Assembly (NCBI RefSeq): GCF_004027225.2
Contig: NC_044277.2
Location: 132,338,057-132,402,056, forward strand
Origin: Strigops habroptila
Taxonomy: Eukaryota; Chordata; Aves; Psittaciformes; Psittacidae
Length of the DNA: 64,000 bases
Direction: 5' to 3'
How positions within the stretch are numbered: position 1 is the first letter of the stretch; each line of letters opens with the position of its first letter. Positions 9,601 through 63,125 of the stretch are shown here, in pieces. The notes beneath the pieces are model-generated. The model searched no databases, had not been told where the DNA came from, and was given only the letters and a program-made list of their open reading frames with translations. A program made the translations under genes and the position numbers.

Positions 9601-9677
9601 GAAATGTCAAGTAGATTCATGTCTGGCAAAGGACTCTTCCTTGTCCATCCTCATCCAATCAATGACACTTGAACCTG

Positions 9678-39200: not shown

Positions 39201-40078
39201 TGAAGGATGAGTACTTGAACATCTAAATAGAATCTATGTATCCATATCAAAGTCCAGGTCTAGATGGCCCATCAGATGAAAAAGGTTAAAGCTCACCAAA
39301 TTTCTACAGCCAATAGCACGCAAGGGAGTGTTGTGGCTAACAGCACATTATATGCTTGGACACCCCATAGTACCGTTAAGGAGGCATCCACTCACTACCA
39401 GATCAGAGAGGGACGATTACCACTGCAAAGCCCAAATCCATCTGTGTCTATGGATCCATATTGACAATTAAGATATACTCCCACCATCTCTTCACTCAAC
39501 CATCTCTTTAAGTTGTTAGAAGATTTAAACTGATTTTAAGGCAATTTTCAACATATTTTAAAATAAACATGAAATGCAATGGTAGAATATTTGCTGCAAA
39601 CTTACTGTTTAAATATTGCAAACACGAGAAACAAATGCCTTGCTTGGGACATTTTGAGTCCATAAGCCAGTTATTAAAATTCAGTGTTTGAACTGGTTTT
39701 CAAAAAGGCTGGTAAATGCATGAGATGGGCAAGTCCTCACTACGCTGAGATGAGTATGTCTGAAAGTATTTCCAAAGCCCTCTCACCAGCCTGGCCCCAG
39801 TGTGGTATTCCAGCCAAATGGAACAGCCAGCTCTTCTCCACTTCCCAGCTTGTCACGCTCAAGGGTTTTCCTTTGTATTTCTCAAAGGAATATTTTCCCC
39901 ATGCACACTTAGAAATCATTTCTCAACATTGCTTTCCAAACTTGAGGTTTTACTTAGGAGTCTTCTGTGCATGGCATTCCTTGAATTTTGTGGGACTGCA
40001 GCTAGGCTAGGACACTGACCTTTACAGAAGAACATTCTGACATCAAAATTAGATAGCATCTTCTCCGGGGTATTTTTG

Positions 40079-40111
40079 TTTGCTTGCTTGCTTTTTTGCT
40101 TGCTTGCTTTT
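40079..40111 (+). repeat. (TTGC)n short tandem repeat
   Basis: Two blocks of TTGC units separated by a T-run. A simple repeat of no evident function. Confidence 0.8.
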
Positions 40112-43100
40112 AAGTGTAGCCTGTAAGAAGGTTCATTGTCTCACTGTTCTGTGACTCGAAGTTGGAATAAAGAATTTTCCTCCAAACTTCAGCAGAAAAA
40201 AAAAAAAAAGGTCTTTTATGAGCTGAGATCAAGTGCCAAAACTTTTAGCTCTAGAGAAGCTTGGGAGAAATTTACAAGTATTTGAAATTGAGGGAAAAAG
40301 GCAAACATGCCAAGAGCAACTTCCATGACACCGGGGGAAATGCAGTTCCTGCCTCTTTTCCTGCAATGGCCTCTAGTTAAATCAACTTCTTCAGAGCAAC
40401 GAATAGGGCTCAAGGCTAGATCTTCTGCTCACTTTATGCTGGCTTTTTGCTAGCTGTCTCATTCAGGTTCACCTTAATACAAGAGAAGGAAAGCAAGGAG
40501 GGAGACATGGGAAAAGGAAATATCTCTCCTTCCTCTCCTAAAAGTAATTGAATGACCATGCCGAACCTGCAACCCAGAAATACTTACCTCATCCACTCTG
40601 ATGGACTTATAGTCCAAGGGGACTTCTCTAGAAACTTGAGGGCTTCACAACACCCCATGTACACAGTTTCTGTCTTTTCTCTTGCAGTTGTGCTGGCCTG
40701 GAGCTGGGCTCAGCTGGTACTGAAGCAGCAGGATGACTGTTCATATCTTTGCTCTGATCCAGGAAATCTGGAGTAATTCTTATGCTTAGCTTTATACATC
40801 TGGGGCAGAATCACAAGTGCATGCAATGTCAGAGCCTAAGCAAGTCAGTAATACTGGGTAGCACACCAAAAACTGTTTCCCAGTGCTGTCAGGGACTGAA
40901 ATATTAAGGGACTATGCCTCAAGAGAACCATGAAAGCCCAAAACATTGTCTGTGTATCACTGACTGTGATCTGCTTGTTTGATTAAGATCTCAAGATTAA
41001 AGCTGAATAAGGGAGAAAACCCTTTCCACAAACCCTTCACTTTCTCAGAAACAAAGAGATTATTTTGCCCATTATGTAATGAAATCACGATTTTCTGAAA
41101 TAACATGAAGTATCAGGGCAACCCACTCTACAGGAGCACAGACTGCTATGCTGAGAGATTGGGAAGCTTTTGTAGATGAGTTAAAGATTCCCCTGAATCT
41201 GGCCAGTTCCAGGCCTTCAGGCACAGCTCCTGCTGATCACGCCTGTACCACAGATCAGGAATACTAAGAGCCGGTGTCTGGTTTTGCTTTCTGTAAATGA
41301 AAACCAATAGCAATTGCTACTGCACTGCTGATCAGCATCCATGTGTGCAAAGTGTTGCAAAAACAACTAAAGAGCCTTCGCTTTATAGGTTTGAACTCAG
41401 AATTAACACTAAGCTGCCATGAGGTTTCCTACCTTGGAATCCAAAGTTTGGAACTTAGCACATCTAAACTACAGCTCATGTTACTTTGTATATGTTAATC
41501 ATTCCTAGAGTTCAAAATATGTTTGTTTGCTTAATATGAATCTATTAATGTGTTGTATGAACATGTATTTATTGAAGATTATCATCTGTGCTTTGGCATA
41601 TTTAAAATCAGATGCACAGTTTATCAGACAGTTGCAGAAGATCTCTGTCTGGCTGCGACCCACTTAAGGATTCCAGCCATGTGATTTCCTTCCTTTTTTT
41701 TACTTTTTAAAATAATCACTGCTACTATTTGGAACTGTATCTTAAAAATGCCTCAATTATGTGCATTTCACAGTGAATGAACCTTTTTCTAATAACGGCA
41801 TTGCACCTGAAGTAATTAAATAGCTGTAGAGCTTATAATCACAACAGAAATTGAATTCTCAGTTAACATTTTTAAAGTCCTATTGATGCAGATTCCTACT
41901 GATTACAATTCCTATTGATTGAAAGCGATTTTAATCAGCTCAGTTGGTTTTTTTAGAGGATTGACTACAAAATAAATACTCTTTTCCCATGTGAGAATAT
42001 TTGCATTACTAGGACCCATACAGGGATGAAGCTTAAAATTCAGTTTTGGTTTACTTTCCCTAGCTGTCTCCCCTGGAAATAGAAAAACAACTCTTGTTTG
42101 AAGACACTTAGCACCATCATTTTAAATGCACGGGCATATCCATCTCCTATGGATAAATATCAGAAATTTTTTTAAATTCCATTTCTGAGACTGCCATACA
42201 TCTCAACCAGTTCAAACATCCACTTGCTTGGGTGCTTAAGCACTGAGCAACCATGGGAATCAGCTATCAAAAAATGAATGCTAATGGTTTATCAATGTAA
42301 AACCCAAATGTCTAATTTCACTACATAACTAGTTAGCTTTATGAAAGTCTAGTAATTTGTTCATATTATGCACCTGTAGTATTTGCCATTGTTATTTTTT
42401 TCTGAGATATATAAACTTTATGGCAGAGCTAACTAGTGGTGTGGAATAACTAACATGAGCCATTCAGATTAGTTCACCCTTCAGAGGGGTTGTGGTTTAG
42501 GATTTCTCAAACCTCGTATTAGTGACAGTCACAGCCAGATCAGCTGCCTTCACCCATGATCCACCCCACAGTGGTTATTGGTATTTTACCACAGATTTTA
42601 GTGGCCTAAATGAGAATTTCAGTGTGGAAAGCATGGTCTCTGAAGGCATCACTGTGACATTGCACAAACTGAACACCTGCCTGGGTGGGGACTATGAAAA
42701 ACCCAGTGACTGGCTCCATTTCAGAAGCATGAATTTCACCGCAGGAGTGGAAGTCCTGCCACCAGCTGCTTCTTCAAGGACACATGGCAATGAGCTTCAT
42801 TAAAATCATAAAAGAACTAACACTGAAGTCTGCATCCGAAGAGAAATTCAACTGCAAGCCAGTCAGATCTGTCCTATGGAGAATAAGACCATAATACATG
42901 GTAACATAACTGAGTCAACATTGTCCTAAACCACACCACCTTCCTATTTTTCACATGATCCATAAGAGCACAGGCAAGCCAAAAATTCCATCACAGCAGG
43001 GAGTACTCACTTTCTCTCACTCTCATGCACAGTATGGACAGGCTTGCAAAAAATGGCTGCAACAGGAGACCTGAACACCTGAACTTCAGTAAAGGGCAAT

Positions 43101-45742
43101 TGTCAAAATACTCTGAGTTCATCTTTAGATCTAATATCCTAAATGGTTCCTTTGCACAGTAAAATATCTTTGTTTAGGCATCATAGTGCACAAGTCTTCC
43201 TAGAAGGATCTTGGTTAAGATGAGCTGACATTCTGTCTTTTGGTCTTCTTCTTTAAAAAGACAGACCTTGTCTGTCTTTTAGCACCTTAACTCTCTATAT
43301 CGTTATTTACAATCAACTCCAGAATCCTGCAATATTGTGACTTCATCTTAGTGTCTAACCTCAGATGGGGAATGCACTTTGCTCCCCTGGTATGGTAATG
43401 CTATTGCTGAGGACAAAAGGTATAACATCTGCAAGTGTTTTGATAAATTGGATCACCTAAAAATTTTTTTAATTAAAAAAAAAAAAAAATCATGCTAATT
43501 AAAACCGTTTGGATAGTGTGATAGATAAATTATCAGAGAAACTGCAACATACAGAAAAGATTCAGGACCCAGAGTCTGGCCATTTCTTTAAAATTTCACA
43601 CAAGTCAAGATGACAAACAGATGGCACAGTTAGGAAAATCTAAAAGGCAAAATATAGCCCCCATGTCACTTTAATGATGCTTCTGCTTATCACAGCCTAT
43701 ATTTTAGATCAACTTACAAAGTATTGTTCTAAATCATACTCTCTCGAGCTCTATTTTCTAAAGACAAACTGGTCTGTAAAGATGCATCAGTCAAGCAGAA
43801 GATTAATTCCTGTTGTACCAAGTTGTTGTTTTTGGCACAGAAGTCAATACTTATAAGACAGAAAGCAGCTGTAGCATGCAAGTTAGCCTAGTGCATAAAT
43901 CTTTGCAGCAGGTTATAGCAAGATGATGATACTATCCACAGGTAACACGATGGAAGCACTGCCACAACAGAGCCTTCCTAATGGTGGTCATCCATTTACC
44001 AGTGTGAGCCACGCTAATGAGGTCACACTAATTCACTTCATGTCATTTCCCCTTTGGAAGCAATCAGCCCAAATATAAACCAGTAATACATTAGAAGAGG
44101 TCACCCAGAGCAATAGCTCTGTAAAGAGTGAGCTGTTTGTATAGGACTCCGAGCCAGATCCAAGCCTGCCCAGAGCAATAGGACGTGCAGCTACTGACAA
44201 CAGGGCCTGGGAAGCAGATTAACCCCCTGTCCCCTTGAAAGCTGGCTGAGGTGAAGCGGTTGCTCTCGGCTTTGCCTGTGGTGTGGTGCTTCATCCCGCC
44301 TCTCTCATCACCCCGCCACATCAGCTGTGGGGGCAGCGGGAAAGGCAGGGGGTTAACTCTCAATTTTCCTTCTGCTGATTGAAGCTTTTGCCTCCCTTTT
44401 GCCTCCCACCCGGTGATGCTGGATGGCAGTTTTGGGGAAGCAGCGGAATAGGGGCACGTCACTGCCAGGAGATGTGGCAGATGTGGTCCTTCCTCCCTTG
44501 CAGGAGGACAAGAGATTTGTCCTCTGGCAGACACACTGTTCCCCTTCCCCATCTCTCCACCTCTTTTCCCTGACACACCAGCAGCTTAACCACTGGAGGC
44601 TGGAGGGAGTGTTACTAACCACACTATTTTGGGGTTTGATTTTTTTTTTCAGGAGATGAGAAACTATGTGAAGCCCATTTAGGCCAATAGGACCATTCTC
44701 TTGCCTGCAAAGGGTTTCTTACCGGTGCCAGAGCTCCTGAGTCCAACCAAGGGGCTTGGCAGAGACTTTGCAGCTCTGTGCTGGGTGCTGCCTCTGCGGC
44801 AATGAGACACCCATCCTCCCTTTCCTCCACATCAGAGAGCTGGTGTGGTCAGCAGCAGGGTCAGGGCACGGAGGCGGGTAACTGACCCGCCAAGTGGCTC
44901 AGGCAAGCCCCTTCCTGCCCCAGCCTCAGCTTTCACATCTTCGACCTGGCAATCATTCCTTTCCGTGGCATACAATGAGCTCTGCAGAGGAGAGGCTAGA
45001 GCTGATCTAATTCTTCATGCACAAGGTTAAACAGATTACTTGTATCTCCAGCAGCCTTACTATCTGTGCTGAAATTGAGCATATCAGATCCCTTGTCACA
45101 GTGTTATCCCTAAGACTAGATGTGAAGGAAGTTCAGCTTGGAAAGGTACTCGGGTATTTCCCTTCTTGAGAACCCTGTCACATCAAATTGTGGTCTCCTG
45201 GCACTGTTCACATGAGTGCAGTTACTCACATACAAGGCCATATGCAGTTTCAAGCCCATGGCTTTCTCTGTAACCACTGCTGCACTTGTTCTGACATTTC
45301 CAGCCTCACTTGAACCAAATTATATGTGGTTTTAGGCGAAGATGTTCAAAATTTAATGTCGAATAGATGCAGATTGAGCCCACATGGGAAGCAGGAAATA
45401 TAATAGAAATGTGCAACTCCATTATATGAATTGATCAGTGTACATTCTGCATGCTTTATAAATTTCACTAGCATGATCATCTGTTTCATTCCTAGAAAAG
45501 AAAAAGCTAGCGAATATGAATTTCTGGAAATAGGCAGCAGAAAGAGATTGACTTGAAATAAACAAAATAGTTGAAATTAAATTTTCTTGGCAAGATTTGC
45601 TTGTGTTGTTCATCAAATAAATGTACATTATGTCTTGCACTATTACTCAGCTGTGATCCTATAATGTGTTTTCTGCATCCTGTCAGACATATGATCCTTT
45701 GTCCCATAATAGACCCAACTATCTCACAACCAGCTGAGCTCA

Positions 45743-45759
45743 GGGTCATCCCAGGGTCA
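45743..45759 (+). promoter_or_regulatory. Second perfect DR5 (RARE-type) element, distal
   Basis: GGGTCA-TCCCA-GGGTCA, two identical consensus half-sites five bases apart, the preferred RAR/RXR arrangement. It lies 12.3 kb beyond the HOXA1 stop in otherwise gene-free sequence. It sits between a moderately GC-rich block (44.1-45.0 kb) and a GGAA microsatellite. Chance occurrence cannot be excluded without conservation or binding data. Confidence 0.55.
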
Positions 45760-47141
45760 GGCTGGTTAAAGATGGATGTCAGTTCACTGCCTGACTCACA
45801 GATGCACTTTAAATCACCTTTATCTTACTTGTGCTGATGCTTTCCAGCCATCACTGTAGCAGGAGCTGTAGCATCTGTGTACGATGTAGGGAAACGTCTT
45901 GTAGCATCCCTGAAAATTTCTCCGTGAATATGCAATGTGCAATATGCCCAATATAAAGCAAGTGCAGCTTTATAATGTGAAATGAGAACTATTTCAAATT
46001 CCTTTATGGAAGGTAGCTAAACCACATGGTTCTCACCCATCTTCTAAATGAAGACAAAAATTCAGAGTGTGAAATAATCACCTTTCAGATCAGAAATATA
46101 ATTATTACTTAGCCTGAAATTTCCAGCAAAAGGAGTATTTGCATAAGAAGAACAGATAATCTGGGAAATGCATCACCTGATGTTTTTATTGTGATAAATA
46201 CCTCCCTTCAGTTCCTGATGTTATACAACTTCTTAATGTTTGTCACTAGTCTCCAAGGTATAGAAGAAAGACAGGCCTTAATTGTAAATTTGCACATGCT
46301 TTATTGCCAGTGCAATGGCATGAACACATTTAACAGGATTGTCATTCCAGTTAATTATGCTGATTCTGACATGTACCTATCACGTCTAAAATTGATAGTG
46401 CTTTTCAACCAGTTAGTAGCATTACAATATGTTGTGCCTTTCTCTCTAAGGTTAAGCATGTTAGGGGCCAGAGAATGGCAGGAGGAAAGAGTCTCTGCAT
46501 ACTAAGTAAGTGCTGCTAGCTCAACAGCCAAACCTCCTTCTAAGAGAACTGTAGATAGCTCAACCCCAGCACATGTTCTGCATTTCTATGTGTGCTCCAG
46601 CCTCAGCCCACCTGCCCCAGGCAAAGACAACAATCTTCATTACACCTAATAGTAAACAACACTGCCCCAGCCTCTCAGAAACTCTTGGCCTTGTTCACAA
46701 TGTGTAGTGCTAGGCACCCAAGCAGATGGTAACACTTATTAAAGATATTAAAGCAGAAAAAAGACAGCAGAAAAGGAGGCAACTATTAGAAAACACTCTG
46801 TGGCAAGGGAAAAACAATTTCCATGTTTTCCCTGCAGCAGAATTCTGAGTCTGTAAATTCCAGACTGAAGAAATTGGGGGAAGACTTGAAATCAACAGCA
46901 AACTACAAGCAAATATCAGAGAGCAAACCACCACCCTTACCCTCAGCAGAGCTATCATTGCTTGTATTAAAGACTCACTTTAAAACCCCTCACTGAAAAG
47001 GCAGATAGGAATCTGGGGAAACCATACGTCCTCCTTTCCTTCCACACATCTGAGTATAAATCTTGTGGGTAATCCCAAAAGGGAAATGGAGGTACATATA
47101 TCTTACAGTCACACCTGGCTGACAAGGGTAATATTTTCAGA

Positions 47142-47424
47142 GGAAGGAAGGAAGGAAGGAAGGAAGGAAGGAAGGAAGGAAGGAAGGAAGGAAGGAAGGA
47201 AGGAAGGAAGGAAGGAAGGAAGGAAGGAAGGAAGGAAGGAAGGAAGGAAGGAAGGAAGGAAGGAAGGAAGGAAGGAAGGAAGGAAGGGAAGGAAGGAAGG
47301 AAGGAAGGAAGGAAGGAAGGAAGGAAGGAAGGAAGGAAGGAAGGAAGGAAGGAAGGAAGGAAGGAAGGAAGGAAGGAAGGAAGGAAGGAAGGAAGGAAGG
47401 AAGGAAGGAAGGAAGGAAGGAAGG
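47142..47424 (+). repeat. (GGAA)n microsatellite, about 70 copies
   Basis: An almost pure GGAA array of about 283 bp. One extra G near 47286 shifts the phase of the second half. Because the 12-bp codon period contains no stop, long false reading frames (GRKE or FLPS repeats) appear on both strands; they are not genes. Arrays this long are unstable in length and offer tandem ETS-type GGAA cores. Confidence 0.98.
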
Positions 47425-50400
47425 ACGTTTGCTTTTGTAAAAAATGGATTAAAAATAATTGTCATTCATTTTCTACCACATTATCCACATGCCTTTTAAA
47501 GAAAAGCAAGTTTTAGTGTTACATCCAAAAGCGCAAAACCACAGGTGATGAGACTCAAGCTAGAGTAGACAGCGCAGACAGGAAGAAACCTAGAGGAATT
47601 ACAAAATGCATTAGGGAATAGCAACTCTCTTGAATGGTCATGTGAAATGCAACTTGGAATACCTCTCCATGCACTATAGCAATTTCACATTGTGCCTGGG
47701 AAAGGAAAAGGTATTACCACCAAAGTCTCTGTTCTCTATGCTGTCCCCCTGCTCCTGCCCAGCTGGGGCAGCAGTCTCTCCTTCCAGCTACGCCACTGCC
47801 CTATAGCAAATATCCTTGGGGACAGTAGCAGCAATGGCCTGCAAAGCCCGTGCATGGTGGTCCCTCTTCTTTCTTCACATCAGCCTTGCCTTTTTGACCA
47901 CTTTCATCCCAACCTGGATTAAAGCGCTGGCTGCACCAAGGGCTGGAAAACTGGAAAAGCTTGGAGCACCAGTGAACAGATCTTGAAGAGCTTGTCTCAT
48001 AGGTGTGGATAAGCATCTGGGAAACATCTAGATAAAGCTTTTTTTTTTTTAATTCTTTTACATAACAGAGTAAGCTGTGTGCAAGGAGAGATTTCTTCCC
48101 CCAGTTTTCCCAATAAGAACTTCTGCAGCTCTTCACCTTCTGAGTGCACCCAGAATTCATTTTGCTGGTCAAGAAAAAACGTATTTTCAGTAGTGGTGCT
48201 CTGGCTAAGTACACATCCTCCTGTTTACACATGAAGGAATGCCCTTCCGATAGTGTAGAGCGTGGTGCCTGCCTTCAGACAAACTCACATCAAGCAGGTA
48301 CGTCTAAAGACAAGGCTGCTGACACACTTCATTCCCTTCTCCCTCTTCTCTGAGCTCAGATAGTGCTCACCCCCTGAGTAGTGACTTTTGGGGCTACTTC
48401 CACAGTCCTTTTTCTGAGAAACTCCCCACTCTAACTGCTAGGGCATTTTATATAGCACAAACATAGCAGGAGTTAACCTTTTGTGATGAAAGAGAATTTT
48501 CTATTTGGTGCCTGATGGCATTTTTTACTTTAAACATTTTACTACAGCAAAAAAGTCCTTCCCTCTGAAATATGACTGATAAATCTTAGATTATTTAATC
48601 TTCACTGAAATGCAGATTGTTTGGAGTTTTTTTCTAAAGGCTGATATATATTCCTTGCCCTGGAAAATATTTAGAGACAAACAAACCTAATTTTAAGGCT
48701 CAGGCCAGACTCCATCACCTTTAGTGCTGCTGTTCCAAACTGATATGGAATTGCACTAAACAAAAGACCTGCTTTCAGGATTAAAAAATGAAAAACGTGC
48801 CTCATTTCCATGAATCATCAAGGACACACCCATGCACCCACAGATCACTCTCTTCCTTCAACACAGGCACCTCAGACACATTAGCACATGAGCAGCTGTC
48901 AAAGGTGCTTCACCAAGAATGGCTTTTGAATTTCCCATATGAAGTAGCAGCATCCTTCTCACTGAGGTTACACACTGAGTGCAGGCACCAGGAGTACAGG
49001 TGACCCTGTACAGATGCGCAGGGACTGCCATCCCACGAGGCTGAATGCACACGCTGCCCTCGAGGAAGGGGCCAGGTCCTTCTTGTCTCCTCTCAGACAA
49101 CACACATTTGAATGCTGTTAATATTGCTCAGCTCTTCCATATCCTGGATGGTGTTTTGGTCTTTAAGACGAAAGGAATTTTATGAAATAATGATCTAAGG
49201 GTTGAAAATGTGCAAAGGAGGGAGGGAACGTGACAAACCTCACTACCCATGTAAAAGGTTGTTTTGCTTCCAGATCAAAGGGGAGGAGGCCTGATCCTGC
49301 TCCCATGCTAGATAAGCAGATATCCTGCAGGCAAGCAAAGCTGGCAACAGGCTGAAATCGTGGTGAGAGTTAAAAAACTTGTTTTTCTATATGCACAACA
49401 AACCAGAAATGTTGACAGAAAAGCAAAAGAACATCTGCTTGTCCTGATCTATGAACGCTTTCCCTGGCTCCATTAACCTCCATTCTTTCTCTGTCTCTCT
49501 TTTTTCCTTAAACTGAAAATTATAATTTTAAATGTTCAAGGCTTTCATTTCTCTATTAATCAGATTAAATCTCCTTAGACACAGTTAAAATACTCTATGA
49601 GGTGCTTCGACCAAAGATCATTTGCCTTGCAATTAGAACTCATTTTTAATACAACAGGAGGGAAATAGAGAACCACAGCTTTAGAATCAATATAACTATA
49701 AATTACATGGAAAAGGAAACTGTAGCATCCTAGCTTGAAACAACAGATTTATTATCAAAGTGGGTAGTATTGTATCGACAGAATACATAAGGTTTATAAA
49801 GAAAGAGGGAAGGAGACACACAGAGAGAAATCAATGTTAACATGGGCTCACTGTTGCTTTAAATGCTGCATTTGTGGTAATTAATTTTCACTTATTATTT
49901 TAAATTGTAAAATGTCACATTGAGAAACGGTTAGTGGCTCAAAAAACCCTCTCTGCAGTATTTTCTAAGGCAAAACTCTATAGATTTTAATGAAAAAGGT
50001 CTGCAGAAGATGGTCCCATTATGTGTTCTGTATTTAATCCTGGTTAAGACAAGTTACTAAAAGGCTTCCTCCATTCCCGTATTTTGAACAGCAGCATAGT
50101 TAAGGTTGCAACTAAGATTTATATGTAAACTTAAATGGTTTGCATTTATTTTGATTCACACCTACTGGATGTCGTGACAAAATTTAAATGCATCATCTTC
50201 CCCTTTCACAAGCAGGATTCCCCTGTGGTTGCTCATATATACAGCACAAAAAAACCTTGAATGTCTGACCATAAGATTTCTTGTTATGTTTCCACTGCTT
50301 TCACTGCACAGTCTGCCCTGCTGTCTACAGTTAAAAGCAGAGGGGAAATTTTTGTCGATCATTGAATACAGAGTTTGCAGTTAGGGCCTGATCCAGAGCT

Positions 50401-51284
50401 CAGGGTAATAGTTGTGTCTGCTACTGTTCCAGCTCCTGCAAAAGTGGGACTCAACCTGTATGGCTGACTGGTCTCGAAACACATCACTGTGCTCAAAAAG
50501 GGGAATATATGGAGATTATCTGGATTTCTAGAATCTCTCACTTGACTTGCAATCAAACCATTTTGAGACTCCTGTTAGAGGAGTCTCAGCAGAATATTTA
50601 GTGTGTTTGGGCTATGTTAATTATATGCTTTACTGTGCCGTTCAAACCCTGGGGTGAGAAAGGTGTGATCTGAAGGGAGAAAAGTTTCTCTTTTTCCTGG
50701 ATTAACAGGTTCAATGAGGCTAATCTTTTGATTTGCAGACCAGAAAGTCCCAGGTGAGCTGAATCTTCCTGGGAAATGAGCCAAAATAGGTCCCACTCAA
50801 AGCTGATGTATGTGTGGGGTCAGGTACAAGCCTCTGCTAAGATTAAACATCTGCTAACATTCTTCAAATGAATCGAAGTTCTGTGGGAACATGTTCCTAT
50901 GGATGAAGACATTGAATGTTTCCTGTGCAGTGTGAGCTGAGGTATGTCACTGAAGATAGGTCTTCTCAGGCCCTTTTTGCCTCTCCTTTTGTTTTCATGA
51001 GCATTGCCTTGCCTCCTAGCACTTTCAGAAATACAAAAAATAAAATACTGGGGGGGCAGATGGTAATAAACTGCAAAGCCCCACGGGCTCCTGCCTGTCT
51101 GCAATACCCACTTCCATGTCTAAACATATTGTTTGTGCTAACACTGTTTGCTGGAAGGAGAGTTCCTCCAAGATAACGTTTCTTGCACAGTGAAATATGC
51201 ATGACTCTTTGCTGGCTCACCTTGCATGGGATCACCTTTCAGTTTCTAGACAGTGGTTTGATTTTCATTCTTTTTCTTCTTCTT

Positions 51285-51321
<37 letters not shown>

Positions 51322-52130
51322 TTTCCCCAGCATAGCATGAGGAACATAACATTACCCCAACCAATGCATTCCATGAATGGATATTAAATCCACTGATACT
51401 ACAGAGCAGTGCTGCAGGGATTTTATTTCTTGCAAAATAGACTAGTCTGGTTAAAGTCTCCACCATTGCTGGGTGCTAATGGGAATATTTTATGACTATG
51501 CTACAAAAATAAATTGAGATTTGGGTGGCATTTCCACTGCAAGTGATATTTTGGAGAGGAGTTAGTTGAGGAGTAAACTGTTGTAAAAGTCAAGAAAAAG
51601 TTTTGTTTTACTAGTACAGAGGAGATTCAATTAAAACTGCCTACAAATCCCCACCCCTGTGGCTTAGCCCCTTCCATAACCTTCACCTTCTTAGGAAGAT
51701 AGGGAGAAGTCTGGACAAGTGGTTATTCTCTGAGACTCCTCCAGTATGCTCCCCCTGCTCTGTCCCCAGATGGAGTCTGTGAATTACACAGATGTGTTTT
51801 GCACCTGAAGGCTCGCTGGTGTACAGTGGAAGAGAGGTTCCCACTCCCTTCCACCCCCCGTTTCCACCGCAAGCCTTACCCTCACCCCCGTGTCCTTTCA
51901 TTACTTAACGAACCCGGTCTCCTGTGTTTTTTCTGCTCTTTATTCCGTGTCACCGGGGCTGAGTGACTGCTGAAGATGAGAGGGGATGAGGAGTGTGAAG
52001 AGGGAAGCTTCTGCCTTTGGTCTGAGCCTGACGAGGAATGATGAAAACCACATGGGCTATGAAAAAGTCCAGTCCAACTTTCTGTTTACCGAGCTCCCTA
52101 GAAACGTCAACATCTGTCACCAAGTTACCC
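47425..52130. other. Intergenic, no gene seen
   Basis: Unique, mainly AT-rich sequence between the first GGAA array and the CpG-spotted proximal domain. Apart from the poly-T run at 51287 and a short T-run near 48040, I see no repeats or genes. Confidence 0.7.
51287..51315 (+). repeat. Poly-T run (29 T)
   Basis: An uninterrupted T-run in a longer pyrimidine tract that ends ACTTTTTTTCCCCAG at about 51330. It could be a retroelement tail read from the minus strand or a simple repeat. It also mimics a strong splice acceptor. Confidence 0.85.
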
Positions 52131-52543
52131 CTAGAAGAGGCACCCCCTTGCTACGGGACCCGGTTGGCAGGTCCCATCCCTCTTCCCCCAGCACTGCCTG
52201 GACCGGAGGGGTGTTGACAGAGGCAAGGGGAGGTTATCCGGGATTTGGTGATGGCTGTATTAATAGACAAAGGACACCAGAAGCGATACCCCTGCCTCAG
52301 CCCTGCCATGCCACCAGCAGCGCGGGGGGGGCCGTCGGGCACCCCGGCTGAGCTTGGCGTTCGCCGTCCCTCCACCGAGGACCCGCGGAGAGGCGCGGAG
52401 CGGCCCGGCGGCCGCAGCCCCGCTTCGTGGTTATTACAATGCACACAACGAATTTTCCTCGTATTAGTCGTTTCCCGAAGATCAAACCCGAGGACAGCTG
52501 CGAATGCAATCGATCCCTACAAAATGCGTTAGCGAAGCGTTCA

Positions 52544-52550
52544 ATCAAAG
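52544..52550 (+). promoter_or_regulatory. TCF/LEF-type site ATCAAAG
   Basis: ATCAAAG matches the TCF/LEF core and lies in an AT-rich segment with retained CpGs (52425-52610), a composition common in conserved enhancers. Wnt-responsive early enhancers are known 3' of mouse Hoxa1. A single 7-mer is weak evidence. Confidence 0.25.
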
Positions 52551-52610
52551 TAGATATTTCCTTGGATTTATTTCTTTTTTATGTTTTAATAATCGATAGC
52601 ATATTGCTTC

Positions 52611-52635
52611 TTTTTTTTTTTTTTTTTTTTTTTTT
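52611..52635 (+). repeat. Poly-T run (25 T)
   Basis: A T-run followed by CCCCTTCC, at the edge of a CpG-containing conserved-looking block. Confidence 0.9.
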
Positions 52636-53019
52636 CCCCTTCCTGGGGGCAAGTGTCCCTCCGAGTTACAACCCCGCGTAGGTTAGAATTAGAAAATGTA
52701 CAAATACTTATGCGCACAGCCAGGCGTATCCGATAAAAAGAGCAACCGCTGCGCAGCGCCGGGACGCCGGGCAGGCAGCGGGCGACTCCCCCGGCTCCCG
52801 ACCGCTCCGACACTTCCTACACGCTCCAACAACTGTTGCGAGCGAAACGCTCCATGAGCCCCTGTATTTTCCTAATCCCTCCGCTTCCCGCTGGCTACAC
52901 CACATCTTAGACTCTTGTGAGCACAAGAGTTGGTGGCTGAGGTTGGCTTCGTGTTCTCTCACTGTCCCTCGTTTGGGCTTGTGTTTGTTAGTTTTTTGCT
53001 ACTTTTACTTTCTTGGACA

Positions 53020-53400
53020 GGGAGAATATTTGCAATACGTTGAGTTTATATTTATAAACTGAGCACTTGGCCAAGTCATGAACTAGCTGCCGGTTTCATC
53101 GTAATCGAGGTTGATCATTATTCGGGTATATTTTTAGAAAAATCAGTAGTCCTGATTTAACATTTTCAAGGTAAATAGATCGGGAAGCCAAAAAAATTCT
53201 AAAAGTAACGGCTGAAGCATTCTCCCTCTGGAACAAATGCTTAAAATTTGTCACTTCCCTATAAAAAATAGCGCGGAAGCATTTTCCGGACCAATTTCTG
53301 CTCGTATTATTGGAATGTGTAATCCTTCTGACGTTGCATGGCAAAGAGTACTCCTCGCATGATCAAAATCAACAGTTTCACACCAAATTCTTAGGCAGAA
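53020..53400. promoter_or_regulatory. Candidate conserved non-coding block
   Basis: AT-rich, repeat-free sequence with retained CpGs (for example near 53100, 53265 and 53330), immediately before the purine tract. The composition resembles HOX-flank enhancers; conservation is untested. Confidence 0.3.
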
Positions 53401-53571
53401 GGGAAAACTTCTTTTCCCCAGAGTTCCCGTTGATTCCATGATCTTTCTGAGCTTGAAACAGGAGTAACTGTGACCTGCAATATTTTATGACACATAAACT
53501 ACAAAAGAATAATGTCAACAGTGAAAGTCGGCCAAGTAATGTGCCTGGGGAAAAAAGGAATGTTTGCCTTG

Positions 53572-53952
53572 GAAAATGAGAAAGAGAAAAGGGGAAGAGA
53601 AAGAGAGAAAAAGTGAGAGAGAAAGAAAGATGAGAAGACAGAAAGAAAGTAAGAAGAGGGAAAGAAGAGAGAGAGGAGGAGGGAGGAAAAGCGAGAAAGA
53701 AGGAGAAGAAAGAGAGAAAGAGAGAGAGAGAAAGAGAGGGAAGGAAGGAAGGAAGGAAGGAAGGAAGGAAGGAAGGAAGGAAGGAAGGAAGGAAGGAAGG
53801 AAGGAAGGAAGGAAGGAAGGAAGGAAGGAAGGAAGGAAGGAAGGAAGGAAGGAAGGAAGGAAGGAAGGAAGGAAGGAAGGAAGGAAGGAAGGAAGGAAGG
53901 AAGGAAGGAAGGAAGGAAGGAAGGAAGGAAGGAGAGAAAGAGAGAGAGAGAG

Positions 53953-53999
<47 letters not shown>

Positions 54000-54004
54000 G
54001 AAAG
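53572..54004 (+). repeat. Long homopurine (GA-rich) tract
   Basis: About 430 bp in which the plus strand is nearly all purine: degenerate GA-rich sequence (53572-53738), then GGAA units, then GA and GAAA units (53933-54004). Homopurine mirror-type tracts can adopt triplex (H-DNA) structure and affect nucleosome placement. Confidence 0.93.
53739..53932 (+). repeat. (GGAA)n microsatellite, about 48 copies
   Basis: A pure GGAA array inside a longer purine tract, about 1 kb from the HOXA1 3' RARE. The repeat-derived reading frames on both strands (161 and 218 residues) are artefacts. Confidence 0.98.
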
Positions 54005-54019
54005 CTTTTTAATATTATA

Positions 54020-54800
54020 TTGCCCTTTATTCATACATTATTAATTTAACTATTTATGTATTCCCTTTCTGTGGTTACAAATCTACTGCGGTCTCACAGA
54101 GCTAATTGCTAAGGGAAAACAAACAAGCCATTTTGCTCCTAAGATTACACGGAAAAACATTCTGAAACGATTCTTTAAAAAAAACCTACAGACTCTCCAA
54201 AACTACAGACTACGCCTCCCCCGGTTGCCCTTCCCGGCTGCTCAGGCTCTCCCGCGGCCCCGGTAGGAGCCTCCCCGGCGCCCGGCCTTTCGTGCCCCGG
54301 ATCCCCCGGTATTTCTTCTCTGGGAGTGGGATGAAAAGCAGTTTTTCCGGTGAAAACCCGCTCGAGTCTATAGCCCAAACGTGAGCTGCCATTAGAGAAG
54401 TACTAATAAATCCCTATTAAGCATGCATTTATGCAGTGATTGTGTGAACTTTGGCCTTTGAAGAGTCCCTGCAATTAGCAGCGACGTCCATCGCGCTTTG
54501 CCCAGCTTTCTCTCTACCCTTTTCCCATCAAGGATGGAGAGGGAAGTACGGCCCCGCCAACGCCTCCAACCTCCACACCCGTCGCTGCTGGGGGGTGCTC
54601 CAAGTATCCTCCCTCTTGCCTCTGGACCCCTCCGTGAAAATGCGGATCCCTTCTGGGGGGGATGTTTCCCGCACTCCCGATACCTCTCGCCGAGGGTACC
54701 CGCCTTTACGCCGGCGCCGGGTGCAGCGCGGGCGCGGAGGAGAAGCTGGAGCTTTGCCGTCTCCGCAAAAGAGAGGAAAGTGGTTAAAATTTAGTAAAAT
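54020..54800. other. CpG-spotted proximal 3' flank
   Basis: An AT-rich conserved-looking piece (54020-54180), a CpG-dense patch (54215-54335), another AT-rich piece with the DR1 site (54390-54490), and a second CpG-dense patch (54540-54760). Open frames of up to 137 codons reflect GC content only. This alternation leads into the RARE enhancer. Confidence 0.5.
54445..54457 (-). promoter_or_regulatory. DR1-type nuclear receptor site near the RARE
   Basis: The minus strand reads AGGCCA-A-AGTTCA, a DR1 suited to RXR, COUP-TF or HNF4 homodimers. It is about 490 bp beyond the DR5 on the side away from HOXA1. The overlapping CTTTGAA is also TCF/LEF-like. Motif evidence only. Confidence 0.4.
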
Positions 54801-54889
54801 CGGCTCGGTAAAAATGAGCAGAAAGTTGCCACTGCCGGGGAGACAGCGAGAGGGAGAGGGATGAGTCTGTAATTGTTGCCTTTACCAAG

Positions 54890-55130
54890 GCTGTGAGATT
54901 AACTGGGATTTATTCTAAAGTGACCCATCACCGAATTCATTTCTGCTTGAACTTTCGGTGAACCTGAGATTAAAGAGGGGAGAGCAGCTAAGCAGTTTGT
55001 TGTTAGCTGCCTTTTCAACAGCCCTTTCAGACTGAGTAAATATTGATCGGTTTCAATCTGATTGCCCCAGAGGAAAACACAAAAGCATCTCAATAGCCTC
55101 CAAAAGTAAACTTTAAAGGTGAACAGCAGA
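54890..55130. promoter_or_regulatory. HOXA1 3' RARE enhancer core
   Basis: Non-repetitive sequence around the DR5 with an intact RARE and nearby AT-rich homeodomain-type and half-site motifs (for example AGGTGAAC at 55117-55124). The mammalian 3' Hoxa1 enhancer has conserved elements flanking its RARE. The extent given here is my estimate. Confidence 0.6.
54948..54964 (-). promoter_or_regulatory. HOXA1 3' retinoic acid response element (DR5)
   Basis: The minus strand reads GGTTCACCGAAAGTTCA: two RGKTCA half-sites as a direct repeat with five-base spacing, the RAR/RXR recognition pattern. It is 3.1 kb beyond the HOXA1 stop and about 4.6 kb from the promoter. This matches the known 3' enhancer RARE of mammalian Hoxa1 in sequence type and placement. 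That element drives the early retinoid response of HOXA1 in neurectoderm. Confidence 0.92.
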
Positions 55131-55339
55131 AATGGTCTTAAGTATGATAGGAAGATGCTAAACTCCGTTAGCCATTTGGACGCGGTTTGGGTTAGGGTTT
55201 TCTTGACGCGAGCGGGGTTTTTTCCTCCTCCCCTTTTTTTTTTTTTTTGTCCCCCTGAGACTCTAGAGATAAAAATTAAAATAAATTTTAAAAGATATAT
55301 AAACAAAAGGATCCCTTAGACCTGAAGGGTAAGTTAGTG

Positions 55340-56900
55340 TTTCCATCAGGCCAGAGCACACTGTGATTTATTTATTTATTTAGCGATATCTTTGTGGTAG
55401 AAACTGCAAGGTAGAGATTTTAATTTCTCTTTCCCACACTCGCTAAACCGAAAGGCTGATCGTATCGAAATAATAATAATAAGGCTAACAAAATGAGCCA
55501 AGATAGGGAAATTTGGGGTGACTTTGCTTGAAATTGGTAAGGACTGCAAAATAAAGATAACCCGGTGTTTGGGCTTGGAAGAAGAAGGGCTTCTTTGCCG
55601 ATGAATCGCTCACTGCAAGATTGACGCTCTGACAAGTGTCTTGTCTCTCGCATTTAGGCTATAATTTATGGCCGCTCTTTCTAACGCATTAAGTCAACAC
55701 CCGGGGAGCCGGGATGCAGATCCGGATTCCAGCAATGTTTAGATCCAGATTTCGATATTGACATGCCCTCATTGGCATGCAAATGCCACTTTAACACATC
55801 CAAGTCTCTGGAAGAAAGCCATCTGTTTTGCTTTGTGGCTTTACACTAATAAACAAAAGGTAAAGTATATAGCAGGCGGGGAAATGAAAGAAATAGGGGC
55901 ATCGGCGGGAGCCTTTGGAGACAGCCCTGCTCCCTTGCAGATAGGTCGGCTCTTGATATGGCCGCCGCGCCTTGCAAATCAGGGCTTGTCTCTTTTGACA
56001 CCGAAGTGAAGAAAATTTCGTTGCCTCTCTGCGGATCCCGCAAAGCAAATCCCCCGTGTGCAGCCCGGCCCCGGGAGAAGCCCGGGAGCACCCAGCCCTC
56101 CGCAGCTGGGCCAGGGGAAGGAGATGCTACGCGTGTTTGCACTGAAATTCAAGAAGCATCAGTGACTTGAGACACTCCCGTCCAGCTGAGCATGTCTCTG
56201 CTCCCTCTTGCCACCCGCTTGCTCTCCACACACGCTCCCCCCCCCACGCCGACCCGACCCGCTGTTCACTTGACATCCCTTGGAATCTTACTATATTTAC
56301 CTGCCAGAACTTGCTTTCCCCTCATCCCTCCCCCCAAAAAAAGTGGTGGTGGTGGTGAATGGGCCGGTGAAACACCACAAGCACCCTGCCAAGCACCTGG
56401 GAGCCATCTCCCAGCTTGGCACCCACCAGCCACTAGGTTTGGGCGCCTGGGACAGGTCAGCGGGAGGGAGAAGCTGGACCAGCTCAGGGCATGGGCTAAT
56501 TGGATGTGCAGCCCTTGGCGAGGGGCCTGCGATGTGAGGAAAGACTGGTCTAAGACAGTTTCTGCTTTTGAAGGGTGCTCTGTTTATATAAGTGTCAGCA
56601 TCCATCCCGAGGTGAAAAGGTTAGCACTTGACCCAGGAAGTTCTCGTGTTTGTGCTTCAGAAATAGAACAGGATCATAAATTCCTCCCAGTTATGGAGGA
56701 GGGAAAGGAGGGCCTGATATTTCCTAAAAATATTGTTATTTGAGCATAGGAAAGGAAGAAGCTTTGTGTTATGAGTAAGGCTGGACAGCCAGGCTTCTGA
56801 CCCCGGCAAAACAGCTCATGAGGAGTTATGCTGGGAGACTTTTCCTCCCTTTCCCCCTTGGAAAGGCCCCAGCAGTGGAAAATAAGGGAAACCAAACTGC
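55340..56900. other. Flank between RARE and HOXA1 3' UTR
   Basis: 55340-55860 is repeat-free with a short ATTT repeat (55375-55382), CDX/HOX-type TTTATGG near 55667 and the POU octamer. 55960-56120 is CpG-rich. 56120-56900 is ordinary sequence with frames open by composition (for example 56192-56743 plus) but no protein features. No gene is called. Confidence 0.5.
55774..55787. promoter_or_regulatory. POU octamer within a short palindrome
   Basis: ATGCAAAT (55777-55784), the perfect POU octamer, is embedded in GGCATGCAAATGCC, whose 5-bp arms are inverted copies. It lies in non-repetitive DNA between the RARE and the HOXA1 3' UTR. POU factors such as OCT4 bind early HOX control DNA; use of this site is inferred. 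Confidence 0.35.
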
Positions 56901-56913
56901 TGAGCCCATCCCA

Positions 56914-56932
56914 TGACTCAGCGCTGACGTCA
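56914..56932. promoter_or_regulatory. MARE half-site plus CRE pair downstream of HOXA1
   Basis: TGACTCAGC at 56914-56922 (AP-1/Maf type) is followed two bases later by TGACGTCA (56925-56932), a perfect CRE that also extends to the GCTGACGTCA CRE-type MARE half. The pair lies about 40 bp past the HOXA1 polyadenylation signal. Candidate binders are large Maf, AP-1 or CREB/ATF proteins. MafB acts on group-3 HOX genes in the hindbrain, but a role here is inference. Confidence 0.45.
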
Positions 56933-56974
56933 CACAGAGGTAGGCAAACGAGGGCTACCTGAAAGTGGAATATA

Positions 56975-56980
56975 TTTATT
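56975..56980 (-). terminator. HOXA1: HOXA1 polyadenylation signal AATAAA
   Basis: On the minus strand the sequence reads TGTAATAAATATATTCC, a canonical hexamer about 1.08 kb after the HOXA1 stop. A T/GT-containing stretch follows within 60 bp. Cleavage would fall near 56955-56960. Confidence 0.75.
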
Positions 56981-57581
56981 ACAGACATTATAAGGACCCG
57001 TAAATCCTGGCCTGGCTTCCATCACCGGTGGAATCCCAGAGCCTTTCATGATTGTACAGAAAATCAGGAGGACATTTCGCTCACACACGACAACTGATAG
57101 AACTCAGTGTACCCGCAGTACAGCAAAGCACGGTGCATCATGCAATGGTCCGGACACCAACCACAGAAATTATACATTCATTTGGCCATTCGTCACATTC
57201 ACAAGTAGGTTGAAAAGACATCAAGTCTAAAGGAAGGTTAATAGGAAACTAGGAAAAGGTGAGGGTTTTTTTGACAGTTATACCCTTCGGTTGAGCATAA
57301 TCCAGCACAGCTTTGGGGGAAAGGGGGCAAGTACACTGGGTAAGGTTTACAAAACCTAGTGCAATTGAAGCCTTGTTTGTCACATTTAAAGAAATAGCGC
57401 TACTTTTTTTTTTTTTGTTGTGAGGTATCTGCTTGAGCTTAAGACGTTTACTTGATATGGTCATCAGCTTTACCAATATAAAAGCGGATCCAGTTTGGCG
57501 AATGCACTCACCCTGCTTAACCTGATAATTGAAACATCATTTCTAGAAAAATCTGTAAAAAGATAAATCTCTTGGACAAAG

Positions 57582-57589
57582 TATTTACA
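57582..57589 (-). promoter_or_regulatory. Pumilio-response-like element in the HOXA1 3' UTR
   Basis: The mRNA strand reads TGTAAATA, matching the Pumilio consensus UGUAHAUA. It is 67 nt downstream of the miR-30 match, close enough for combined post-transcriptional control. This is motif evidence only. Confidence 0.4.
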
Positions 57590-57655
57590 AGCAACAAACT
57601 CATAGACACGAACAAAGAATACATTAAATTAAGGGGATGAAAGTCCTATAAGTCG

Positions 57656-57663
57656 TGTAAACA
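57656..57663 (-). promoter_or_regulatory. miR-30 family 8-mer seed match in the HOXA1 3' UTR
   Basis: The mRNA strand reads TGTTTACA, the perfect 8-mer target of the miR-30 seed. It lies about 400 nt after the stop codon in the AT-rich part of the UTR, a favourable context. Use in vivo is inferred. Confidence 0.45.
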
Positions 57664-58061
57664 CTTGCAATAGTGCATCTCTTCGTGAGGTTATGTACCC
57701 TAGATAACCTGTCTGTCACTTAGGGAAAATCGGAGGACCGTCCTTGCAGCAGAGGAGGATGACTCGTGTGCCAACACAGATCCTCCAGCAGAAAGGGTTT
57801 GTGAGGGTTGAGGGGAGTGGGGGAGAAAACCTCATGGCGCCGGGACCTGGCCGATGGGAGGCGAGCAGGCGGCGGAGCCGGTACCCCCGGGACCAGGCGG
57901 CGTGGGAAGGGGGAACTGGAGGGGGAAGGGGGGAGCCGGAACCTCTCGGGGAGAGCGACCGACCAAGGGACCGACCGGGGCACTGACATAACGGCGGTGA
58001 ACGGAGGCGAGCTGCGCTGGCGGGGCCGTCGGGACGGGCGGCCGTCGGGGCGCGGCGGGTC

Positions 58062-59464
58062 TCAGTTGGGGGCAGCGAGCGTGTCCGAGGCGGCGGAGGA
58101 GGCGGGCGAGGCAGTGCAGGGCGAGGAGCAGGACTTCTCCGAGGACTCCTCTGCCTTCTCCTCGCAGCCAGTGGGGGTGGCAGGAGAGATGGGTAGTAGC
58201 CCCTCTTTCTCCCGCTTCTTTTGCTTCATCCGCCGGTTCTGGAACCAGATCTTCACCTGTGTCTCGTTGAGCTGGAGGGAGGCAGCAATTTCCACCCGCC
58301 TGGCCCTGGTCAGGTACTTGTTGAAATGAAACTCTTTCTCCAACTCGGTGAGCTGCTTGGTGGTGAAGTTAGTTCTGACAGTGTTGGGCTGCCCCACGAA
58401 GCCATACTCACCAGCTTTGCCTGCGAAGGGACATGCAACGGTAAGTAAGCGCGAATGATTTATAGGCGACGTAATCAATATGTCCACACCGGCTAAGCGA
58501 TAGGGAGCAAGAACTTCTTAGGATAAGGGGGAAGCCCCGGCAGGGTGAGTGATGGAGTGCGAGGTGCTAAACCGGAGTCAGCCCCTAGTGTCAGAGGAAA
58601 CTTGATAAGTGGTTTATGAATTACAAGAAATATGACCGCAGGAGAGGCGGAGAGAGGGAGGCTGGAATAAGCGGCGCTGGCTCCCAGCGCCGCGAGCAGA
58701 CAGCAGCGGCTGCTCCCAGAGGTGCGGGCCGGCCCACCTGTCCGGCACCCCGCGGGCACCGCGCCGTTTCCCTCGCACCCACGGCCGAGAGAGGGAGAGA
58801 GGGAGAGGAGCGGCCCCCGCCCCGGCTCTCCCGCCGGCCACTGACCTGTTTTGGGTGGGTTTCTTTTCACTTTCATCCAGTCGAAGGTTTGCGCCGGCGG
58901 CGAGGTCTCAGCGGAGGGGGAGCGGGCGTTTTCCCGGTGGCCGGCGTGGAGGGGAGACAGGGCATGGTTGTATGTGCCCAGGGACAGGTTCTGCTGCTCC
59001 TGCCCGTACGGGGGAGGCACGTACTGAGCGGGGCCCCCGGCGTAGCCCTGGTGCGGGTGCTGCGCGGCAGCGGAGGTCGAGGAGATGCTCCCCGAATAGA
59101 CCGCCGGAGCGCAGGGGGGGAAGCCGCCTCCCAGCTCCGCGTCCTGCCCCAGGGGGTAGGGGCCGTATGCCGGTCCGAAGCCCTGCGCGCCGTAGGTCGG
59201 GCCGCAGCCGGGGTGCGCGTAGGACACCCCCAGGCCTCCGTGGTGCTGGTAGGCGGCGGGCTGGGCCGGGGGGTGGTGGTGGTGGTGGCGGTGGGGGCTG
59301 ATGGGCACCCCGCGGCCCGGGAGGAAACGGTCCTCCCCGCTGCAGCTGCCGGCGCTGACGGCGCAGGGCTGGAAAGTTGTAATCCCGTGGTCGGGGTGAT
59401 AGGCGCGGGCGGCGCAGGCCCCCGCCTCGCCGCCGAGGACGGGGTACTCGAGGAAGGAGCTCAT
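58062..59464 (-). CDS. HOXA1: Homeobox protein Hox-A1, two coding exons
   Basis: Anterior (labial-class) HOX transcription factor. In vertebrates it acts in the nucleus with PBX and MEIS/PREP partners to pattern the hindbrain, inner ear and neural crest. Exon 1 CDS is 58846-59464 and exon 2 CDS is 58062-58420; joined they give 325 codons plus TGA. The donor reads ACAG|GTCAGT and the acceptor CTTCGCAG|GC, splitting a Gly codon at residue 207. Visible parts: N-terminus MSSFLEYP, a His tract (H58, R59, H60-64), the PBX-binding hexapeptide TFDWM at 193-197, and the homeodomain at about 218-277 with W265 and N268 as homeodomain positions 48 and 51. The tail is Ser-rich and ends LAAPN. Human HOXA1 is about 335 residues, so length is normal. 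The ATG at 59464 is fixed because an in-frame TGA lies seven codons upstream. The preceding codons read D-A-A-R, matching the mammalian extension D-N-A-R, but the extension's own Met codon is AGG here. Confidence 0.98.
58421..58845 (-). other. HOXA1: HOXA1 intron 1
   Basis: A 425-bp phase-1 intron between the hexapeptide exon and the homeodomain exon, the usual position in HOX genes. GT is at 58845-58844 and AG at 58422-58421. The exon 1 frame stays open for 117 codons into the intron, stopping near 58493, so an unspliced message would encode a 323-residue protein with no homeodomain. Confidence 0.93.
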
Positions 59465-62100: not shown

Positions 62101-62369
62101 ATTTAAACAGAGTTTGCGAGAAGTTTAAATCTCGTATCGCATTTTCCTTTCCCTTTTTTTTTTTTTTTTCCCCTTTCCTTAAGCGTTGCCAGCATCCAGA
62201 ACTCTGGGCACAAAAGAAACCCCAAGCCCGTACGTGCTCTTTGCGGTCCCATTTAACACAGTGGCAGAGTTAAAACGCCGGTGAGGCTGCTAATTCTCCG
62301 CAGGGACAGGGCTGGAGCAGAGAGGAGGAGAAGAAGCAGGCCCGAGGTTTAGCCGCGTCCGCAGCTCAG

Positions 62370-62570
62370 CCAAGCTGTTGTTTTAAAAGAGCAATAAAAA
62401 TGACTTATGACTAAACGCCTTCTCACTTAATGGTTTTAGACGGGGATCCCCAGCCCCGGCAAATACGTAAGAGGATTTTTATTTGTGCATGTGTTCCTGC
62501 AATTGATCTCTTTGATGACATTCTCATTCATAGAAAGAGTTTGATTTATGACTTTCGGAAGAATTGCGTT
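62370..62570. promoter_or_regulatory. Candidate regulatory block between HOXA1 and HOXA2
   Basis: An AT-rich, non-repetitive block inside GC-rich surroundings. It carries TGACTTATGA near 62401, a TCF-like CTTTGAT near 62509 and a PBX-HOX-type TGATTTATGAC at 62542-62552. Motif clustering and composition suggest an enhancer; conservation is not tested. Confidence 0.35.
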
Positions 62571-63125
62571 CAGCCCTTCCAGCTATAACCCACGCATCCC
62601 AGCTCCACAACGTGTTGCAGGGCTGGGAGACAACACTCCTCACACGGACAGACAGCACAAACCCCACTCGCCCGTGTAATGTATCCACACGCACTCACAC
62701 ACACACAGGGAGACGCGATAGCACCCGCCCGGGATCCTCCAGCCCCGGAGCGGCAGAGCCTCGATGGCATCTGTTGCTCGGTTTTAGCCCGAAGGACGGG
62801 GCTCACCCTGAGTTTTGGGGTTCGTTGGCCGGGTGGCAGGCAATTTGGTGGAGGATTCTGAAAGCCCATCTTTGCTGCCTCCAGCAGAGAGGGGGGAGCC
62901 CTGAAGAAATTGTAACTTTAAAGGTAGAGTTTCTCCTTTTCGTTATCAGTCCTTCGACCCGCAAGAAGGTTTAAAAAGAAAAAAAAATATCTTCTGTTGT
63001 GTCCCTGCCCCGCTCCTCAAAAGGACGGAGTGGAGGGGCTGATTCCTCCCTACGTTTTTTTCCCTGCGTTTCTGCCACCCTTTTGATTTTACAGGCACTA
63101 ACTTCTCCATTTCCTCTCCTTCTAG

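Follow-up and report, generated by a model that had tools for sequence, protein, structure and literature searches.

A second DR5 match on the 3' side of HOXA1 in Strigops habroptila is an ordinary candidate and may be a chance match

We analysed a stretch of 64,000 nucleotides (C1:132338057-132402056, hereafter the window) from a genome totalling 1.1486 Gb and found that a DR5 at position 45743, on the 3' side of HOXA1, is a sequence-valid candidate of a known kind and an ordinary one. We lean towards reading it as a chance match in noncoding DNA that would lack any conserved enhancer function by itself, and consider this likelier than a working auxiliary RARE; such gradings reflect our judgement of the points set out below and were not computed. 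The chance reading is preferred because of the genome base rate, the simulated windows, a below-median match score and the absence of the site from published tables. We counted against it that two of the three DR5s in the wider landscape are published RAREs, that the site shares a 5 + 21 layout with the classic HOXA1 element, and that a weak DR5 lies nearby.

The window fits the HOXA1 locus, with its 3' flank pointing to low coordinates. A 141-aa ORF at 58062-58487 (-) contains a homeodomain (Pfam PF00046) whose best PDB match is HOX-B1 (1b72), and on the ORF, the Pfam domain and the PDB match we annotated 58062..58487 (-) as the HOXA1 homeodomain exon, the ORF start being possibly intronic. 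Eight more homeodomain exons lie within 80 kb past the window end, and a full-length Rfam match to HOTAIRM1 conserved region 2 (225.6 bits) lies at 62355-62574 (+). The original prediction had described GGGTCA-TCCCA-GGGTCA at 45743..45759, about 12 kb beyond HOXA1, as the partner of the classic RARE some 9 kb off on the opposite strand. Sequence (GGGTCATCCCAGGGTCA), coordinates and strand (+) were all exact. The DR5 is 12.3 kb away from the HOXA1 stop codon at 58062, on its 3' side, and 9,188 bases separate it from the classic element (GGTTCACCGAAAGTTCA, 54948..54964, (-) strand), which is identical to the mouse Hoxa1 entry in Table 2 of PMC7259794. It is a direct repeat of RGKTCA hexamers with a 5-bp spacer, and its 17-mer has a single exact copy in the whole genome. 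Between it and HOXA1 lie two long tetranucleotide arrays of GGAA type, at 47141-47425 (71 copies) and 53739-53933 (49 copies).

We evaluated how often such a site is expected. RGKTCA-N5-RGKTCA occurs 3,058 times genome-wide, or 0.17 per 64 kb, against 4,439 for a reversed control pattern, and GGGTCA-N5-GGGTCA, a subset chosen after 45743 had been seen, occurs 286 times (0.016 per 64 kb) against 909 for its control; the control counts are rough because their base order differs from that of the DR5 patterns, and tandem arrays add to the RGKTCA DR5 and GGGTCA-pair counts alike. A near-identical GGGTCAGTTRTGGGTCA array at C1:618986-619656 inflates the genome-wide DR5 counts. The rough controls gave no sign of DR5 enrichment in the genome. 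The number of RGKTCA DR5s expected per window was 0.23 by dinucleotide shuffles (at least two in 4 of 100 shuffles), 0.11 from half-site density and 0.09 in 300 third-order Markov simulations (at least one in 7.7% and at least two in 1%). The window itself contains RGKTCA direct-repeat pairs, across spacings 0-30, only at spacings 5 (two), 17 (one) and 21 (two). Two DR5s per window are unusual, yet one of them is the long-known element; a single extra DR5 per 64-kb window is unremarkable by itself.

Match quality was scored with a DR5 matrix built from the 11 distinct DR5s of PMC7259794 Table 2, ignoring the spacer. The 45743 DR5 scored 16.7 and ranked second in the window, as its best DR5 match below the classic element. 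Among 60 first-order Markov windows, 17-18% contained a match as good as this, depending on whether the Hoxa1 sequence was in the matrix, and 41 of 60 other DR5s on the same contig, with a median of 17.2, equalled or exceeded it. Half-sites of the form GGGTCA are permitted; in the 3' position, ten of the 11 distinct DR5s in Table 2 of PMC7259794 have a half-site with A as first base, where 45743 has G. With a score below the median and this 3' half-site, the element is valid but not perfect, and the words "perfect" and "optimal" originally applied to it were overstated.

Under the chance reading, the pair would have arisen by chance and would lack a role in vivo, and HOXA1 would owe its retinoid response chiefly to the classic element at 54948. 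Binding of 45743 by an RXR-RAR heterodimer in vitro is still probable, judging from its RGKTCA half-sites and 5-bp spacing. PMC3091300 reports at least 150,000 high-similarity DR2/DR5 matches in mouse that lack significant RAR binding, and gives about 65,000 surplus predictions against 500 true ones, an excess that makes motif matches alone poor predictors. If the site is neutral, it illustrates how little a DR5 match close to a retinoid gene proves, with some three thousand of them in the genome.

GGGTCA hexamers are common to many nuclear receptors, which favours a reading in which receptors tolerant of spacing (NR2F/COUP-TF, RXR homodimers, orphan receptors) would use 45743 and the site would not be specifically retinoid-responsive. 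We regard this as improbable, given that the spacing is exactly 5 and that the window holds no DR0 to DR4 RGKTCA pair. Repeats with nuclear-receptor sites are also known in other vertebrates, so the motif could have been brought by a transposable element. This seems to us the least probable reading: the 401 bases around 45743 match only themselves in a genome search that skips very common words (a high-copy family is still compatible with this), the 17-mer is likewise unique, 45400-46100 holds no tandem array and only short two-copy repeats (11-16 nt) plus one 11-nt inverted pair, and two short motifs of the CR1 repeat tail are absent from the window. With no further copy found by a search of that kind, a transposon origin was set aside.

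Neither did 45743 appear to be a duplicate of the classic RARE. Their flanks showed no detectable homology, with 31% identity in register outside the half-sites, and aligned no better than random pieces of the window (score 10, p = 0.25 in DR5 orientation; score 8, p = 0.84 on the direct strand). A noncoding RNA gene at 45743 was rejected on finding no Rfam match at E <= 0.01 in 40000-58000, and an IMG/VR scan with a 27-mer gave no match. Two small resemblances between the sites are possibly chance. CTCA stands immediately 5' of both DR5s, each on its own strand, and TTAAAGA, which has 23 copies in the window, occurs at 45766-45772 (+) and 54970-54976 (+); read along the + strand, it follows the 45743 DR5 after 6 bases and the classic one after 5, despite their opposite orientations.

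We then placed the site in a 204-kb landscape, made up of the window flanked by 60 kb on its 3' side and by 80 kb of HOXA cluster sequence, with 1,703 N. This contains three RGKTCA DR5s against 0.26 expected per spacing; as a control, the other spacings from 0 to 30 give a mixed picture, with three DR9s, two each of DR2 and DR21, and one each at seven more. The DR5s stand out by which elements they are. Besides the classic element and 45743, the third DR5 lies at C1:132415047-132415063, between the third and fourth homeodomain exons. By the usual HOXA exon order, these exons are presumably HOXA3 and HOXA4. The sequence of this DR5, GGTTCAAGAAGAGTTCA, is a letter-for-letter match to an element in Table 2 of PMC7259794, and the classic element is 22,043 bp away from it in this genome, against 22,107 bp in mouse by the coordinates of that table. 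Two of the three landscape DR5s are published RAREs conserved to birds. They are the two Hoxa1-associated RAREs that Table 2 marks as conserved to birds, and its Hoxa1 entries hold no counterpart of 45743. The excerpted text of PMC7259794 further places a RARE and a peak bearing DR5/DR2 within the Hoxa1 3' untranslated region; both lie towards the gene from the classic element and are therefore not 45743. Table 1 of PMC4009813 has one Hoxa1 3' DR5 row, and 45743 is absent from its Hoxa1 entries. Titles and abstract openings of the matching literature listed do not mention a second Hoxa1 3' DR5, and the excerpted text of a chick ATAC study (PMC7895974) yielded no statement on the 45743 interval. 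Published tables of this kind either start from mouse or cover elements already known, so a bird-specific RARE is compatible with them.

One feature that counts against the chance reading is the layout around the two HOXA1-side DR5s. Both have a third same-strand RGKTCA half-site after a 21-bp gap, starting +38 from the first half-site: AGTTCA at 45781..45786 (+), 3' of the 45743 DR5, and GGGTCA at 54921..54926 (-), 3' of the classic DR5. The window has no other triple of same-strand half-sites within 60 bp; positions 9670 and 26349 each have a mixed-strand one. Third same-strand half-sites within 60 bp accompanied 8 of 60 background DR5s, none of them at +21, and 2 of 27 DR5s in third-order Markov simulations. 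From half-site density, a random DR5 has about a 0.1% chance of matching the exact offset of the classic element, although the real surprise is smaller because the match was spotted after the fact among several features, and the layout rests on two sites. A weak DR5-like match, AGGTGA TTTAA AGTGCA, at 45803..45819 (-) ranks fifth in the window by the DR5 matrix; a second weak DR5 less than 80 bp away was likewise found for one of 60 background DR5s. Between the 45743 DR5 and its third half-site lies AGATGGATG (45770..45778, +), which we take to resemble a HOX-PBX site. It does not fit TGATNNAT, which is absent near either DR5, and a HOX-PBX/MEIS partner code was rejected despite the presence of AGATGGATG beside 45743. 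The single paper found in a literature search contained the string only inside a PCR primer, which lends the resemblance no support.

Accessory half-sites are present at some known RAREs. The genome has two one-mismatch copies of the classic element. One, L086 (C1:137721573), has an extra same-strand GGGTCA 24 bp upstream, and the other, L087, has no third half-site. We take L086 to be the RARB2 promoter; at its positions 1471 and 1501 are a DR5 that departs from the classic element by one spacer base (GGTTCACGGAAAGTTCA) and, upstream, an imperfect DR5 (GGGTCATTTGAAGGTTA). The 21-bp gap does not amount to a general rule, because L086 differs and L087 and the HOXA3-HOXA4 DR5 lack such a half-site. 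That the HOXA1 3' domain would carry two independent RAREs on one plan (DR5 + N21 + third half-site, two helical turns), with an accessory half-site that is functional and spacing-constrained in early-acting RAREs and was reached twice without homology, we consider unlikely.

The main alternative to the chance reading is that 45743 would be a working auxiliary (shadow) RARE, reinforcing RA induction of HOXA1 or of 3' noncoding transcripts in parallel with the classic element; we hold this as a real but lesser possibility. RXR-RAR would occupy the DR5, helped by the third half-site two helical turns away, and in the simplest mechanism retinoic acid would bring about corepressor exchange and so reinforce transcription of HOXA1 or nearby noncoding transcripts. 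One study gives a Kd of 1.7 nM for RAR/RXR on a DR5 element (PMC12489474), and DR5 was the most activating of several spacings of one DR sequence tried in mouse ES cells (PMC8643627). The site lies in the HOXA1 3' domain, where mouse has RAR-bound regions and RA-linked enhancers: by their excerpted texts, PMC4510006 reports RAR/RXR-bound regions with direct repeats found by ChIP (Heater-associated H-AR1/H-AR2), PMC6649716 an RA-linked enhancer about 150 kb from Hoxa1 on the 3' side, and PMC8643627 the Hoxa1 3' side among loci with RAR-bound regions or RA-linked enhancers. GGGTCA, moreover, is the 5' half-site in several conserved RAREs of PMC7259794 Table 2, the 5 + 21 layout is common to 45743 and the classic RARE, and the RARB-like promoter L086 too has its upstream GGGTCA. 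Set against these points are the base rate, the below-median score, the atypical 3' half-site, the absence of 45743 from the tables of PMC7259794 and PMC4009813, and the missing third half-site at L087 and, within about 80 bp, at the HOXA3-HOXA4 DR5. The mouse elements also lie at other distances by the excerpts cited, the Heater at about 50 kb (PMC4510006) and the enhancer at about 150 kb (PMC6649716). If functional, the site would give HOXA1 a further retinoid input besides the classic RARE, which it could buffer as a shadow element, and the importance of accessory half-sites two helical turns away could be tested on it directly.

We finally compared 45743 with known retinoid-responsive systems. 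It shares with the GGTTCAAGAAGAGTTCA DR5 its class and its place inside the HOXA landscape, whereas that element is conserved to fish per Table 2 of PMC7259794 and lacks a third half-site in the surrounding 80 bp or so. Like mouse H-AR1/H-AR2 in the excerpt of PMC4510006, it is a direct repeat 3' of Hoxa1; those regions are about 50 kb from Hoxa1 and ChIP-bound, whereas 45743 is known from its sequence. The classic Hoxa1 3' RARE differs from it in half-sites, spacer, strand and position, 45743 lying on the opposite strand and 9.2 kb further away and being absent from the published tables (PMC7259794, PMC4009813). GGTTCACCGAAAGTTCA was found once in the genome, at window position 54948, and 45743 does not match that sequence. 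In this genome, the two HOXA1-side sites nonetheless agree in DR5 geometry, in lying 3' of HOXA1 and in being followed after 21 bp by another half-site on the same strand. The DR5 of the presumed RARB2 promoter (L086) differs in that it is a promoter element with its extra half-site upstream (24 bp), and resembles 45743 in combining a DR5 with an additional half-site on the same strand, some two helical turns off.
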